A stretch of DNA of 33,308 bases from Myxococcota bacterium (GTDB lineage: Bacteria > Myxococcota > JAJVIH01): assembly GCA_022072125.1 (NCBI GenBank), contig JAJVIH010000013.1, forward strand, positions 1 to 33,308, in the 5' to 3' direction. This document shows, piece by piece, positions 26,623-33,208 of the stretch. How positions within the stretch are numbered: position 1 is the first letter of the stretch; every line of letters starts with the position of its first letter. Under the pieces are notes generated by a model. The model was not told the origin of the DNA. It did no database searches and saw only the letters and a program-made list of their open reading frames with translations. Both the position numbers and the translations under genes were made by a program.

Positions 26623-28740
26623 TTACACCAGCCAGCGTCGCGACGGAGCGAGGTTGCTTTCCATGTCAATCTCCAATGGCGCGTCCGGAGGGTGTTGTTC
26701 GATCACCAGACCATCCCGCATGAGTTCCACTGTCAACCTCACGCGCCGCTGTCCATCCAGATTGAGCAGGCTCAAGGGAATCGCGGCGCGCACAACCCCG
26801 TACGGAAGCGCCTGCGCGCGGACGCCGCCATCCGCCGGCGCAACGGCCCGCACTTCGCCATCGCCGCCGCGCTCCAGGGCGATCAGGATATCCGCGCTGG
26901 TCCCGGCGGCGGCGCGGATGCGCAACATTTGGCCGTCGTTGGCGTGTTCACCCAGGGTGATGCGCAAATACATATCCCGGTCGCTGGCGCCGTACAGAAT
27001 CAGCCGCAGAAGACCTGGCTGGGCCATGGCGCCGCCCGGGCCGGGCAGGTATTTGCCCGCGCCATGCCAGGAAAAATAGCTGTCATGGGGGCTGCTGAAA
27101 TCCGGGGCGATGGCGGCGAAGGGCGGTTCGACGCGGGCGAGCCTGCCCGGCTGACGGATGGGGCGGTACAGCGTTTCCGGAATCTCCTCGCCGATCAGCC
27201 GGTAAACCTCCGCCAGGTTGGCGCGGAAGAGCCGGTCGTAGATGCTGTCGGTTCCGCTGTCGAATTTGTCGCCGTACCACCAGAACCAGTCGCTGCCCTC
27301 GGCGATGCGCAGCCGCCGCCAGGCCAGCTCGCCGCGTTCGCCGCCGTGCTCCTGGCTCCATTCACTCAGGCGCGCATGGGCGGCTCCAAGGGCTTCCCAG
27401 GCGGTATTTTCCTCGCCGCCGCCGATCCAGATACGGAAATTGCTGTCCACCCACGAGCCTGAATGCAACTGGCGGATGCGCCGTTTGGCCGGGTATTCCC
27501 GCAGGAACCCGGAGATGGTGGTGGTGGCGATCCAAGGCGTGCTGGAGAGGGTCTGGTACAGTTCGCGCAGGAAGGGCTCGCCGCGCCCTTCGTAATGCTC
27601 CCAGGGGTTTTCACCGTCGAGGATGATCGCCACGAGAGCGGGGTCTCCAGTATCGCCGCGGGGAATGCGCCGGAGGGTTTCCATGAAATGGGCGATGGCG
27701 CTGGGACCGGCCGTGCGGTGGTACTGGAACCCGAAGGCGTCGGACAGCGCATGGTGGCGTCCGATGAGGGTCATTTCACGGCCATCCGCCTCGCAGAGCC
27801 ACGGCCGGTTGGGTTCAAACGCGCCTTCGATCCGCGAGCGGGCAATATTGTTTTCATCGGTCGCCAGCCACTCGAAACCCGCCTCGCGCGCCAGCGGGAT
27901 GACTTCGGGAGAAACCGCGCCTTCGCTGGGCCACAGTCCGCGGGCGGGCGAGCCGGAGATCTCCTGAAAACGCCGCTGGGCCTCGCGCAGATGCCAGCGC
28001 GCTTCCTCTGGCGCCCGCATGCGGCGCGGCCGGGGCGACTCCGGCTGGCAGCGCGCGGCCGCATCCGTATCCGCCAGCAATGGCAGAATGGGGTGGTAAT
28101 ACGGCGAGGTGGTGAATTCCGGCAGGCCGCCTTTGGCCGCCGCGATATAGCGGTCCCGGGTGCGCGCCATCATCCGCAGGTGAAGGTCCAGCACCGTGCG
28201 CTTGTCTTCCTCGGTGAATCCCCGCCCCTTGGCGATCAATTCGCGCAGTTCCGGATATTCCCGCCGCGCGCTGAAACCCGTCCACGCCAGGTTGAACAGG
28301 GTCTGAAGGTCAAGAAAATCGGCGTCGCTCAACTGCCGGGCCAGGCTGGCGCCTTGTTTTCCGGCGGCCGCGCGTTGATCATCCAGTTTGCGGTAACGGG
28401 GCAGCGGTTCGATCATGGTCCGCCGGTTGGCCATGAAAAAATAGCGGACGATCTGCTCGCGATCCTGGTGTGTCAGCTCCCGTGCGGGGATTTCCGTCAA
28501 CCGGAAACACAGATCGCGTTTGCCCCGGTCCAGGATATCGTCCACCTGATCCATCAGCGATGGAACCAGATTGAAACCCAGTTTCATCTGCGGAAACGCC
28601 AGCGCCATGTCGAGCATGTCCGCGTATCCGGCGGCGCCGTGCAGGCGCACCCAGGGCAGGGCGAAGTCCCCCGTGGCGGGGTCTTCGTAATGCGGCTGGT
28701 GCATATGCCAGAGAAACGCGACGTGCAGTTTGCCGCTCAT
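26623..28740 (-). CDS. GH57-family glycoside hydrolase (second, amylopullulanase-like branch)
   Basis: A 705-residue GH57 protein of a different branch from its neighbour: 'HMHQP' (12-16), Glu273 in 'GLWPSEGAVSPE' as likely nucleophile, and Asp375 in 'IILDGENPWEHY' as likely acid/base, the pattern of amylopullulanase/alpha-amylase type GH57. A helical domain (about 380-530) follows, then a beta-rich C-terminal domain (about 545-700) with 'DMYLRITLGEH'. No signal peptide. It starts 9 bp after glgC and ends 15 bp before the other GH57 gene. Substrate (glycogen, starch, maltooligosaccharide) is inferred from context. Confidence 0.92.
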   Translation of the reverse strand: MSGKLHVAFLWHMHQPHYEDPATGDFALPWVRLHGAAGYADMLDMALAFPQMKLGFNLVPSLMDQVDDILDRGKRDLCFRLTEIPARELTHQDREQIVRYFFMANRRTMIEPLPRYRKLDDQRAAAGKQGASLARQLSDADFLDLQTLFNLAWTGFSARREYPELRELIAKGRGFTEEDKRTVLDLHLRMMARTRDRYIAAAKGGLPEFTTSPYYHPILPLLADTDAAARCQPESPRPRRMRAPEEARWHLREAQRRFQEISGSPARGLWPSEGAVSPEVIPLAREAGFEWLATDENNIARSRIEGAFEPNRPWLCEADGREMTLIGRHHALSDAFGFQYHRTAGPSAIAHFMETLRRIPRGDTGDPALVAIILDGENPWEHYEGRGEPFLRELYQTLSSTPWIATTTISGFLREYPAKRRIRQLHSGSWVDSNFRIWIGGGEENTAWEALGAAHARLSEWSQEHGGERGELAWRRLRIAEGSDWFWWYGDKFDSGTDSIYDRLFRANLAEVYRLIGEEIPETLYRPIRQPGRLARVEPPFAAIAPDFSSPHDSYFSWHGAGKYLPGPGGAMAQPGLLRLILYGASDRDMYLRITLGEHANDGQMLRIRAAAGTSADILIALERGGDGEVRAVAPADGGVRAQALPYGVVRAAIPLSLLNLDGQRRVRLTVELMRDGLVIEQHPPDAPLEIDMESNLAPSRRWLV

Positions 28741-28749
28741 GGATTGGAA

Positions 28750-29994
28750 TCAGGCTTCGGGGAAACGGTAGCCCTTGGGCGCCACGACAATTCCGGCGGA
28801 GTCAATGACAAAGCCCCGTTTGCGGTCCAGTTCGTGATCATGGCCCACCGTGGCGCCGGCGGGGATGCTCACGTTTTTGTCTATGATCGCCCGCTTGACC
28901 CGGGCGCCTGGCCCCACATGCACATTCTCGAAGAGGATGGAATCCGTCACCTCCGCGTGGGGATGCACGCGCACGCGCGGGAACAGGATGCCGCGGTGAA
29001 CGCTGCCGCCGGCGATGATGGCGCCTTCCGCGATCAGGGAATCGGTGGCCTCGGCGCGCTTTCCGTTTTCGCCGCCGCCATGGACCAGTTTGGCCGGGGG
29101 ATGGGGCAGGTAACTGCTGTAGATGGGCCAGTCCGGGTTATAGAGCGAGAACACCGGCATGGGCTGGATCAGGTCCATGCTGGCCTCGTAATAACTTTCG
29201 ATGGTTCCCACGTCCTTCCAATAGGCCTGCTCGCGGGCGTCCACCCCGGGGATGCGGTTGGTGGCGAAGTCGTACACGTAGACCTGCAACTCCTTGTAGA
29301 CCCGCGTCAGGATATCCTTGCCGAAGTCGTGGCTGGAGCCGGGCCGGGCGGCGTCGTCCTTGAGCAGGGCCATCAGCGGCCCGGTGCTGAACACGTAATT
29401 GCCCATGGATGCGAGGATGCGGGTGGGGTCGCCCGGCATGGTTTTGGGAGCCGCGGGCTTTTCCTCGAAACCGATCATGCGGTGGTTGTGGTCCGCCTCG
29501 ATCACCCCGAAATGAATGGACATCGCGGCGGGCGCCGGAACCGCCGCCACGGTGATGTCCGCGCGGGTGTCGCGGTGAAACTGGATCATCTGCCGCACAT
29601 CCATCTTGTAGATATGGTCGCCGCCGAACACACAGGTGATATCCGGCATTTCATCGGTCAGGATGTTGAGGTTGTGGTAGATGGCGTCGGCGCTGCCGCG
29701 GTACCATTCCTTGCCGATATTCATTTGCGGCGGCACCGCCTCGATATAATGGCCCAGCATGGTGGACAGGTTCCAGCCGCGCACGATGTGCTGATTCAGG
29801 CTGTTGGACTTGTACTGGGTCAGCACCTTGATCTTGTGAATCTGGCTGTTCACGAAATTCGACAGCACGAAATCAATGATGCGGTAGCGTCCGCCGAAAG
29901 GCACGGCCGGCTTGGCGCGGTCCAGGGTGAGAGGCAGCAGGCGTTTGCCTTCTCCGCCCGCCAACACCATTGCAAGGGTGCGATCACGAATCAT
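28750..29994 (-). CDS. glgC: GlgC: glucose-1-phosphate adenylyltransferase
   Basis: The 414-residue enzyme makes ADP-glucose from glucose-1-P and ATP, the regulated step of glycogen synthesis. Seen: 'TLAMVLAGGEGKRLLPLTLD' with the nucleotide loop, 'KPAVPFGGRYRIIDFVLSN', 'GDHIYKMD', 'FEEKP' and the C-terminal left-handed beta-helix with allosteric site. The ATG at 29994 is preferred to the GTG at 30030 because GGAG lies about 8 bases upstream. It sits between sspB and two GH57 genes. Confidence 0.96.
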   Translation of the reverse strand: MIRDRTLAMVLAGGEGKRLLPLTLDRAKPAVPFGGRYRIIDFVLSNFVNSQIHKIKVLTQYKSNSLNQHIVRGWNLSTMLGHYIEAVPPQMNIGKEWYRGSADAIYHNLNILTDEMPDITCVFGGDHIYKMDVRQMIQFHRDTRADITVAAVPAPAAMSIHFGVIEADHNHRMIGFEEKPAAPKTMPGDPTRILASMGNYVFSTGPLMALLKDDAARPGSSHDFGKDILTRVYKELQVYVYDFATNRIPGVDAREQAYWKDVGTIESYYEASMDLIQPMPVFSLYNPDWPIYSSYLPHPPAKLVHGGGENGKRAEATDSLIAEGAIIAGGSVHRGILFPRVRVHPHAEVTDSILFENVHVGPGARVKRAIIDKNVSIPAGATVGHDHELDRKRGFVIDSAGIVVAPKGYRFPEA

Positions 29995-30034
29995 GGATGG
30001 TTCTCCGTCCGGAGATTCCGGATCTCTCACGCAC

Positions 30035-30553
30035 TTACTTCACCAGGCGCAGGTGTCCGCGCCGCGGCGCCGCGGGCTGGGGCGCTTCCTCGCCGCCGGA
30101 CTGCGCCCCACCGTTGACCACCTGGAGCCGCGGCCTGGGAGGAGCCTCTTCACCGGCTTCTTCCGCCGGTCCGGACCCGTTCTGCTGCTGAGCCTGTTCC
30201 ACCTGGGCGGCCAGCACCCTCTTCATATGCTCGCGCAGGTCCTGGGGGATGGACTCCTCCCAGATAAATCCGCCGTCCGCCGTCTCGCTGGTCATGCCGT
30301 AGATGGAATCCCAGGGCAGGCGGCAATAAAACGGCTGGCGATTGAACGACAGGGTTGCTCCCAGCCCATCATCCCCGATGGTGAGATCGGGAATATGGAA
30401 TTTGTAACTGAGGTTCAGACGCAGGCAGGGGTTGATTTTCAGATGGCTGGGGACCAGCACGTCATCGCGGCGCGCATCGAGATGGATCATGGTCAACCCC
30501 ATCTCCATCAGTTCCAGCAGCGCGGCTTTTTTTTCGGCGTTGATAGTTTCCAT
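30035..30553 (-). CDS. sspB: SspB-family ClpXP adaptor
   Basis: A 172-residue protein of the SspB type that delivers ssrA-tagged or other proteins to ClpXP. The folded domain (1-115) has 'MIHLDARRDDVLVPSHLK', 'LRLNLSYKFHIPDL', 'GATLSFNRQPFYCRLPWDSI'. A flexible linker rich in Gln, Pro and Glu (about 120-160) ends in 'RRGHLRLVK', the conserved ClpX-binding tail (E. coli SspB ends similarly). It is the first gene of the glgC-GH57 operon; the link to glycogen is unexplained. A plausible promoter lies just upstream. Confidence 0.9.
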   Translation of the reverse strand: METINAEKKAALLELMEMGLTMIHLDARRDDVLVPSHLKINPCLRLNLSYKFHIPDLTIGDDGLGATLSFNRQPFYCRLPWDSIYGMTSETADGGFIWEESIPQDLREHMKRVLAAQVEQAQQQNGSGPAEEAGEEAPPRPRLQVVNGGAQSGGEEAPQPAAPRRGHLRLVK

Positions 30554-31270: not shown

Positions 31271-32017
31271 CTATTTCAGCGGCAGGATGGCGAAGCCCTC
31301 CGCCGCCGCGGCCTTCAAAAACTGCTTGACCAGCGGCCCGGAGCAGCCCGCCTCTTCCGCGGCGTTGCGGACGGTCAATCCCTCGTGAAGCATTTTGAGC
31401 ACGAACAGATGCCCGTCCCGCGCCGGGATGGTCCGGACAAAACCGGTATCCGGGCGGCGGAAGACAAAGGCGATTTCCCCGGTTTCCGGCGGCGGCCAGG
31501 CGGGTTTCGCCCTCTCCTCGTCATGCATCCATGAACGCATTTCCCCAATGAACGAGGCGGTGGCGTACCGGCATTGATGGATCTCCAGCGTCGGATTCAG
31601 CACGGGCTCCGTGAGATCATGTCTGGGCGGGATTTCTTCCCGGTTGCTCAACGCCACCCATTCCAGCCATTCAATCCGGCTTAATTCCACAAGGGCGGGG
31701 CCGGGAATTTCCTGACTGGCGGATATCCGATCAGCCAGGAAATCCGGAAACGGCTCCGCGCTGTGGTTCAGTTCCGGCTGCCTGGGCGGGAACCGCCGGA
31801 TGTAATCCGCCGTCAGTTCATCCCACAGGTCTCCAGGCAGGACGGCGCGGGTGAGGGCGAAATTGGACTCCAGCGCTCCGGCGACATGCCCGCGCACCGC
31901 ATCACGGTAATATTCCATCCGTTCGCGGGGAATATTCCATTGTTCCGGAAGATTTTCCGCTTCCGCCTCCCCGCGCAGAAAGGCGTGCATCCGATCCACG
32001 GCTTCCCGCAGATTCAT
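31271..32017 (-). CDS. BufC/HvfC-like partner protein (DUF2063)
   Basis: A 248-residue DUF2063-type protein, the partner that binds precursor and DUF692 oxidase in bufferin/oxazolin-type clusters. Seen: N-terminal helical part 'YYRDAVRGHVAGALESNFAL' and 'LTADYIRRFPP', 'FPDFLADRI', 'LVELSRIEWLEWVAL' and a C-terminal winged-helix-like segment. Its ATG overlaps the DUF692 stop by 4 bp (ATGA), so the enzyme subunits are made together. No Cys-rich metal site of its own. The DUF2063 call rests on these motifs plus the neighbour. Confidence 0.85.
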   Translation of the reverse strand: MNLREAVDRMHAFLRGEAEAENLPEQWNIPRERMEYYRDAVRGHVAGALESNFALTRAVLPGDLWDELTADYIRRFPPRQPELNHSAEPFPDFLADRISASQEIPGPALVELSRIEWLEWVALSNREEIPPRHDLTEPVLNPTLEIHQCRYATASFIGEMRSWMHDEERAKPAWPPPETGEIAFVFRRPDTGFVRTIPARDGHLFVLKMLHEGLTVRNAAEEAGCSGPLVKQFLKAAAAEGFAILPLK

Positions 32018-32844
32018 GCCGCCTCCCCGGGGTTTGCGCACAGGCCGGACTCCGCCGCCTTCCGCATCTTGTCCGCTTCCTTCAGGAGCACATCCAGCGG
32101 GGGCACGCTGTTGTCCCATTCATACAACACCCAGGCGTCCGGGATTTTTGGGGCGGTCCAGGCCAGCAGATCGTATACCGCGTCAACGGCATGGTCGCCG
32201 TGGGTGTCCACAATGAAGGGGCCGCTGGCGTCATGGCCCGCGACATGAACCTGCTTGACCCGCTCCAGCGGCATGGACAGGATGAATTCCCGTGCGCCGT
32301 AGCCATGGTTCACGGCGTTGACGTAGACATTGTTGATGTCGAGCAGCAGGCCGCAGCCGCTTTGCTCCAGCACTTCACGGATAAACTCCGCCTCGGTCAT
32401 CTCCGCGCCGGGCATGACGAAATAGTAGCTCGGGTTTTCCAGCAACAGCGGCAGCCCCACGTGGTCCTGCGCCTGCCGCGCCCGCTCCGCCACGCGCCGC
32501 GCCGCTTCCCGGGTGAATGGCATGGGAATCAGGTCGAAATACTGTTCGCCGTGGGCGCCCGAGTAGCACAAATGATCGGAAAACCAGGGCGGCTGAACCT
32601 CGCGGAAGAGTTCGCGCAGCAGATCCAGGTATTCCCTGTCCAGATCATCCAGCCCGCCGATGTTCAGACCGACGCCATGGGCGGCGACCGGCCAACGCTG
32701 GAGAACCTGCCGGAGCACGGTCCGGGGACGGCCGCCGCGAAACATGTAATTGTCCGATAGGATTTCCAGGAAATCCAGCCGGTTGCGGCGGATATCCATG
32801 ATCTCCCCAAAATGTTCGCGGCGCAGGCCGATACCGAATTTCAT
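32014..32844 (-). CDS. BufB/HvfB-like multinuclear iron oxidase (MNIO, DUF692)
   Basis: A 276-residue TIM-barrel iron enzyme of DUF692/MNIO type (MbnB, TglH, BufB, HvfB), which oxidises peptidyl cysteine to oxazolone/thioamide or related groups. Candidate iron ligands on view: His56 (AHGVGLNIGG), His91 (SDHLCYS), Glu136 (ENPSYYF), Asp169 (LLDINNVYVN), His200 (QVHVAGH), His215/His218 (THGDH), Glu242 (YEWDNSVPP). The strand-end motifs 'LENPSYYF' and 'DINNVYVNAVNHGY' are strong family marks. The start at 32844 gives the standard 'MKFGIGLR'. Its substrate would be the precursor just upstream. Confidence 0.93.
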   Translation of the reverse strand: MKFGIGLRREHFGEIMDIRRNRLDFLEILSDNYMFRGGRPRTVLRQVLQRWPVAAHGVGLNIGGLDDLDREYLDLLRELFREVQPPWFSDHLCYSGAHGEQYFDLIPMPFTREAARRVAERARQAQDHVGLPLLLENPSYYFVMPGAEMTEAEFIREVLEQSGCGLLLDINNVYVNAVNHGYGAREFILSMPLERVKQVHVAGHDASGPFIVDTHGDHAVDAVYDLLAWTAPKIPDAWVLYEWDNSVPPLDVLLKEADKMRKAAESGLCANPGEAA

Positions 32845-32891
32845 GCCGGGATTCTCAGGCGTTTCATGGGGTGAAGGCAACAGCCGGAGCG

Positions 32892-32927
32892 AAAAAAAAC
32901 ACTCCCCGCCCTGATGAGGCGGGGAGT
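32892..32927 (-). terminator. Hairpin and U-tract between RiPP precursor and enzymes
   Basis: On the minus strand ACTCCCCGCC (32927-32918) pairs with GGCGGGGAGT (32910-32901), a perfect 10-bp stem with seven-base loop, followed by G and eight T. It lies 38 bp after the precursor stop and about 50 bp before the DUF692 start, so it can end most transcripts after the precursor, letting a minority read through. Confidence 0.85.
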
Positions 32928-32965
32928 AAGTGATCACCCTGCTGGTGATGGCGGAAGGAGAAGGG

Positions 32966-33208
32966 CTACTCCTTCTTATCTTCTTTCTTTTCCTCTTTCT
33001 TGTCTTTCCCGCACTTTTTGTCGCCGCCGCACTCCTTGTCCTTGCCGCACTCCTTGTCCTTGCCGCACTTTTTGTCGCCGCCGCACTTCTTTTCTCCGCC
33101 CTTTTCATGGTCGTCGGCGCTGGCGAGCATGGGGGCGCTCACGGCCAGGCTTCCGAGCGAGAGGGCCGCGGCGAGGGCTCCGATGTTGATTTTCTTGCTG
33201 AGCTTCAT
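32966..33208 (-). CDS. Bufferin/oxazolin-like RiPP precursor with five CGxDK repeats
   Basis: An 80-residue exported peptide. Signal peptide 1-31 (KLSKK…, cut after …MLASA). Then five cysteines at 42, 48, 54, 60 and 66, exactly six residues apart, each in the repeat K/E-CG-K/G-DK. The tail (70-80) is Lys/Glu-rich. This is like the EGKCG repeats of HvfA (Haemophilus oxazolin) and the Cys-rich bufferins, which carry copper after MNIO modification, but with a Lys/Asp-rich variant motif. The ATG at 33208 has AGGAG about 9 bases upstream. It is the first gene of bufABC. The metal bound is unknown; copper is the default from the family. Confidence 0.9.
   Translation of the reverse strand: MKLSKKINIGALAAALSLGSLAVSAPMLASADDHEKGGEKKCGGDKKCGKDKECGKDKECGGDKKCGKDKKEEKKEDKKE
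32996..33091 (-). repeat. In-gene 18-bp tandem repeat (five copies) of the precursor core
   Basis: Five 18-bp units coding for xCG-x-DK follow each other without gap. The near-identical DNA could expand or shrink by slippage or recombination, changing the number of modifiable cysteines between strains. Confidence 0.75.

Follow-up and report, generated by a model that had tools for sequence, protein, structure and literature searches.

Three minus-strand genes at positions 33208–31271 of the window (the whole stretch of 33,308 nucleotides of Myxococcota bacterium contig JAJVIH010000013.1 that was analysed) very probably (about 0.8) form a captophorin cassette of the bufferin/oxazolin type, whose product would be a Cu(I)-buffering thiooxazole peptide; what we infer within this reading is the chemistry, the role of the signal peptide as leader, the export, the binding of copper and the partial termination. 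The genes lie in the order precursor, MNIO (DUF692, an iron enzyme) and DUF2063 partner. The reading is supported by the MNIO and DUF2063 profile matches, the MNIO fold, the conserved residues, the recurrence of similar precursors and the homology of their signal peptides. A sequence-only reading of the window had likened this trio of MNIO, DUF2063 protein and exported Cys-repeat peptide to HvfABC and the bufferins, and the gene content indeed matches that of captophorin and bufferin clusters. Judged by sequence, the type of cassette is known and its hexad, Lys/Asp-rich core repeat is new; it would extend the captophorin class to a six-residue repeat beyond the Pseudomonadota studied so far.

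The MNIO gene (32844–32014, minus strand, start ATG at 32842–32844) encodes 276 residues and matches PF05114 with an E value of 1.2e-94 (316.9 bits, cut-off 25). The partner gene (32017–31271, minus strand), which encodes a 248-residue protein of PME type 1 (HvfC-like), matches PF09836 with an E value of 3.1e-15 (56.7 bits, cut-off 27.2), so that the profile check proposed in the sequence-only reading was positive for both genes. Their 4 bp overlap was also confirmed and consists of a common ATGA. The best NCBIfam model for the MNIO is MNIO_BufB (NF050167; 295.8 bits, cut-off 310), the HvfB model gives 264.3 bits (cut-off 360) and the HvfC model, the nearest in NCBIfam for the partner, gives 53 bits (cut-off 142); these scores below the BufB, HvfB and HvfC cut-offs count against the captophorin reading. 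In most searches the MNIO reference was 32841–32014, without the first Met. Modeled with AlphaFold from four sequences (pLDDT 84), the MNIO resembles PDB entry 3BWW most closely (E value 2e-21, TM score 0.80), followed by TglH and MbnB. The model of the partner is of low confidence past approximately residue 124 (the RRE half), which is a further point against the captophorin reading; its top three PDB matches, none of them at E ≤ 0.001, are TglI, NGO1945 and MbnC, each of them an MNIO partner. A profile of eight partner proteins reaches 3DEE at 6e-5, and the Pfam search reported no PF22106 match for the partner. The C-terminal part of the partner resembles a region near the N-terminus of SbtM (TIGR04082; E value 6e-11), the radical-SAM maturase of a thio(seleno)oxazole and thus of a related product chemistry, but the cassette contains no radical SAM enzyme. 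TIGR04081 (SbtA-type) has no match in the genome, a result of little information given that the controls were likewise without a match.

The precursor gene (33208–32966, minus strand) is directly preceded by a clear Shine–Dalgarno sequence, AGGAGAG; the MNIO gene has no clear one. The precursor gene encodes a predicted exported peptide of 80 residues, MKLSKKINIGALAAALSLGSLAVSAPMLASA followed by DDHEKGGEKKCGGDKKCGKDKECGKDKECGGDKKCGKDKKEEKKEDKKE, where the cut is placed by the A-x-A rule. Inspection and homology assign approximately residues 1–31 to a Sec-type signal peptide (KLSKK, then INIGALAAALSLGSLAV, then APMLASA), and cleavage is predicted between ASA and DDH. The precursor has no Pfam or NCBIfam match and hence no DUF2282, the domain by which Buf1 is recognized. 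Its five cysteines (residues 42, 48, 54, 60 and 66) follow a period of exactly six, in agreement with the coordinates and spacing of the sequence-only reading; when the predicted mature peptide was shuffled 200,000 times, exactly even spacing arose 31 times. The hexad is encoded by an 18 bp tandem repeat (33009–33100, minus strand; 5.1 copies, score 100), and no further copies were found elsewhere in the same genome. Codon differences between the repeat units are not mainly synonymous (12:16 synonymous to non-synonymous), which counts against the captophorin reading; in the CGxDK-type precursor of genome G001 the units differ mostly synonymously (48:18 pairwise codon differences).

Read around the cysteine, the repeat is [D/E]-K-[K/E]-C-G-[G/K], and all five sites carry D or E at −3, K at −2, either K or E at −1 and Gly at +1; the −3 acid and the +1 Gly follow the logic of EGKCG, here with a period of six residues. 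The definition of Buf_EGKCG/oxazolin precursors (repeated EGKCG with five-residue spacing, or 17-residue repeats) does not describe the peptide. The contrast drawn earlier between CGxDK and EGKCG therefore holds for the repeat as such but was overstated, given the −3 acid and +1 Gly at five of five sites and a signal peptide homologous to those of EGKCG-type precursors. In FonABC, where each site is E-G-K-C-G, FonB contacts the acid at −3 through Arg15 and Arg16 and the residues at −1 and +1 through Phe250, with Asp249 as its proposed base; it accepts K, A, R or T at −1 but neither E nor F, and calls for a small residue at +1 (PMC13097082). The window MNIO retains the Arg pair (R8-R9), the metal-site residues and D244, the equivalent of FonB D249, and has N245 at the Phe250 site. 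The metal-site residues and the Asp are conserved across the aligned MNIOs.

Sites 3 and 4 of the peptide are KECG, and because of these two Glu residues before Cys the earlier wording of 'up to five' modified cysteines is the right one. It is possible, if rather unlikely, that the same cassette modifies the three K-C-G sites only and leaves the cysteines of the two E-C-G sites unmodified, so that the ligand would combine free thiols with thiooxazoles. The severely impaired processing of FonB variants with Glu at −1 (PMC13097082) speaks for such a product. The window enzyme, however, has Asn rather than Phe at the contacting site, tolerance at −1 was altered in FonB F250D (PMC13097082) and MNIOs of the same lineage adjoin precursors in which Cys is preceded by S, H, G or Q, all of which favor the captophorin reading without this restriction. 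A tight pairing of the pre-Cys residue with the residue at the Phe250 site was considered and rejected, since the two are only loosely associated (CG-type precursors are seen with N, Q, H, A, V and F alike). With Lys- and Glu-preceded cysteines in one peptide and an altered gate residue in the enzyme, the cassette offers a natural test of MNIO substrate choice.

The second Arg of the pair places the window enzyme with the CG-type (Lys-Cys) MNIOs: in Planctomycetota MNIOs this residue is T, A, S, N or V with CKG-type precursors and is retained with CG-type precursors. The one exception to this rule is locus L103 (G362:C60), where an MNIO with the Arg pair adjoins an ECK-type precursor. In the MNIO tree, the window enzyme groups with those of G001, G197 and G024 (support 95/92), that of L044 lies with 3BWW and those of L046 and L056 are separate. 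The tree bears on whether the MNIO makes some other Cys modification (e.g. an oxazolone-thioamide) or whether the product has its role with another metal or in redox stress rather than with copper. The relatives found share no more than ∼50% identity with the enzyme, which lies outside the curated equivalogs, and a precursor sequence is no proof of chemistry; both points leave room for such a departure. We nevertheless consider it distinctly unlikely, as the tree puts the enzyme on the BufB/HvfB-like MNIO-PME1 side, apart from the TIGR04222-associated MNIO, and all characterized MNIO-PME1 products contain 5-thiooxazole and generally bind Cu (PMC13097082).

The CGxDK motif is rare but recurrent and is not private to this genome. 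A DNA pattern scan for CGxDKxCGxDK over approximately 85,000 genomes gave 21 stretches, four of which encode short proteins that have a signal peptide and adjoin an MNIO: L044 in a deltaproteobacterium, L046 and L056 in Phycisphaerae and L050 in a member of the Planctomycetota. A looser pattern added one more among 195 genomes of the window's phylum (G001, directly upstream of an MNIO), and when 392 genomes from the phylum of G197 were scanned with a still looser one, seven matched, G197 alone among the seven loci read having an MNIO alongside. In G288, the genome with the best MNIO match in that phylum, CGGDK units occur at longer spacing. CGxDK-type precursors adjoin MNIOs in five other genomes (G001, G197/L050, L044, L046 and L056; Myxococcota-like and Planctomycetota), where a short signal-peptide repeat protein lies directly upstream of the MNIO gene. 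The precursor had been called unusual; it is rare, as that word implies, but not unique.

This recurrence, together with the homology of signal peptides across MNIO precursors, makes it very unlikely that the precursor stays unmodified, as a Lys/Asp/Cys-rich peptide that binds metal or is structural, and neighbors the MNIO by chance. Such a peptide is favored by two hits of the pattern scan: L047, with CGGDK repeats in a genome that gave no MNIO match, and L091, in which a DKKCC stretch is fused to a further domain and 2.9 kb contain no MNIO. The L047 frame, however, runs off the contig end and is without a signal peptide. The L091 protein (genome G306) has a signal peptide and carries CGDKKCCADKKC at its start. 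L047 and L058 (Zixibacteriota) are CGGDKK-encoding repeats near contig ends and perhaps not a gene. A single clade of hexad precursors was also considered and rejected; the tree places the MNIOs of L044 and of L046/L056 apart from the group of the window enzyme, and therefore the repeat is either common to them or arose more than once. In the L044 cluster, an ECF sigma-factor gene and a probable anti-sigma gene (L044:5451–6703) follow the DUF2063 gene, which suggests stress control there.

When 401 signal-like N-termini were ranked against the window signal peptide, the 14 nearest were all those of MNIO precursors and other proteins came only after them; the N-termini were taken from all fetched loci, which are precursor-rich and include many frames that are not real genes, and the result is thus a ranking and not a probability. 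The signal peptide is common to the window, EGKCG-type and SCG-type precursors, the cores of which have diverged, and this persistence fits a role as leader. In HvfA the signal peptide is kept for efficient modification, and its removal cut modification sharply (PMC13419390). Sequence comparison thus indicates that the signal peptide probably doubles as a leader, and its retention beside diverged cores speaks for a Sec signal that acts as the leader. According to the captophorin reading, the MNIO with its DUF2063 partner would use the signal peptide to bind the precursor in the cytosol and would turn Cys in [D/E]-K-[K/E]-C-G into 5-thiooxazole, a four-electron oxidation with a loss of 4 H per Cys. 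The peptide would then be exported by Sec and cut after ASA, and the mature form, an unanchored and highly charged thiol-heterocycle ligand in the periplasm or outside the cell, would buffer Cu(I).

With the captophorins of the Lys-Cys group (fontiphorin FonABC, oxazolin HvfABC and gonophorin; PMC13097082), the cassette shares the A-B-C gene order, a Sec-exported Cys-repeat precursor, an MNIO with a DUF2063 partner, the −3 acid and small +1 residue, the Arg pair and the Asp equivalent to the catalytic base. It differs in that the five-residue EGKCG gives way to a six-residue period with an extra G/K spacer, the −2 residue is Lys, two of the five cysteines are preceded by Glu and Asn occupies the Phe250 site; it also lacks DoxX and scores under the HvfB and HvfC cut-offs. 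The bufferins Buf1 (DUF2282) and Buf2 (6/12 Cys; PMC12452194) are similar in the nearest MNIO model (MNIO_BufB), the DUF2063 partner and export, whereas the window cassette has no DUF2282 and no CKG-type Cys pattern, keeps the second Arg and has an MNIO outside those tree groups. The Myxococcaceae-type EGSCG/EGKCG precursors (L006–L033) have homologous signal peptides, MNIOs that are 47–51% identical and a hairpin in the A-B gap, but they are lipoproteins with few cysteines and S, K, H or G before Cys. Some of them are plain EGKCG, and the precursor of G024 mixes EKKCG and EGKCG. Whereas a lipobox is present in the precursors of the nearest relatives, the window peptide, with its Lys/Asp-rich hexad, has none. 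We speculate, as an unlikely elaboration, that the hexad precursors represent a captophorin branch (Myxococcota-like and Planctomycetota) with a code of its own (D/E at −3, K/E at −1) and Asn replacing the Phe250-type gate, in which the peptide described here lost its lipid anchor and would, if cut at ASA/DDH, expose an X-X-His (ATCUN-like) N-terminus for Cu(II). Were this so, the peptide could hold copper in both oxidation states.

The 121-nucleotide gap between the precursor and MNIO genes contains an intrinsic-terminator-like hairpin (32900–32928, minus strand; z −4.3), with a 12 bp GC-rich stem followed by eight T and no match to a curated RNA family. Stable folds (z ≤ −2) are present in the same gap in five of the six other loci of CGxDK or mixed type (G001 being the exception), in seven of eight Myxococcaceae-type loci and in two of five Pseudomonadota plasmid clusters; a stem with a T-tail is found in the window, G024, L044, L046 and some Myxococcaceae-type loci. 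From its sequence, the hairpin is probably a partial terminator that sets precursor output above that of the enzyme, and read-through past it would keep the peptide in excess. Its recurrence suggests a possible common read-through control of the peptide-to-enzyme ratio, of which the main papers searched make no mention. Hairpins in the A-B gap are spread across phyla (L013, L044, L046, L050, L056 and L007–L031).

The three genes of the cassette stand alone. They adjoin neither a DoxX nor a sigma-factor gene nor a known copper regulator, which is a point against the captophorin reading. The sequence-only reading had reported no DoxX within the window and an upstream side that is cut; the absence of DoxX is now confirmed past the edge, but the upstream side is no dead end, as the contig is 118 kb long and continues past the window. 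The neighborhood beyond the window was checked in the 30–49 kb part of the contig. A DoxX hidden past the edge was rejected from the open reading frames ∼9 kb beyond the window and a genome search, the sole DoxX being on contig C46 among unrelated neighbors. The window end is followed by 68 N (contig 33309–33376) and then by a divergent gene for a secreted protein of 774 residues (L003:3616–5940), which has weak metallopeptidase and MopE-type copper-site matches below cut-off. Downstream of the cassette is a convergent 183-residue open reading frame with no family match, and positions 26623–30553 of the window encode ordinary neighbors: a GH57 glycosidase, a GlgC-like nucleotidyltransferase and a weakly SspB-like protein. 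A second MNIO in the same genome (G000:C15:18753–19529; L002, L063:8721–10534) adjoins a TIGR04222 membrane protein with a Cys/Gly-rich tail and is a different MNIO system.
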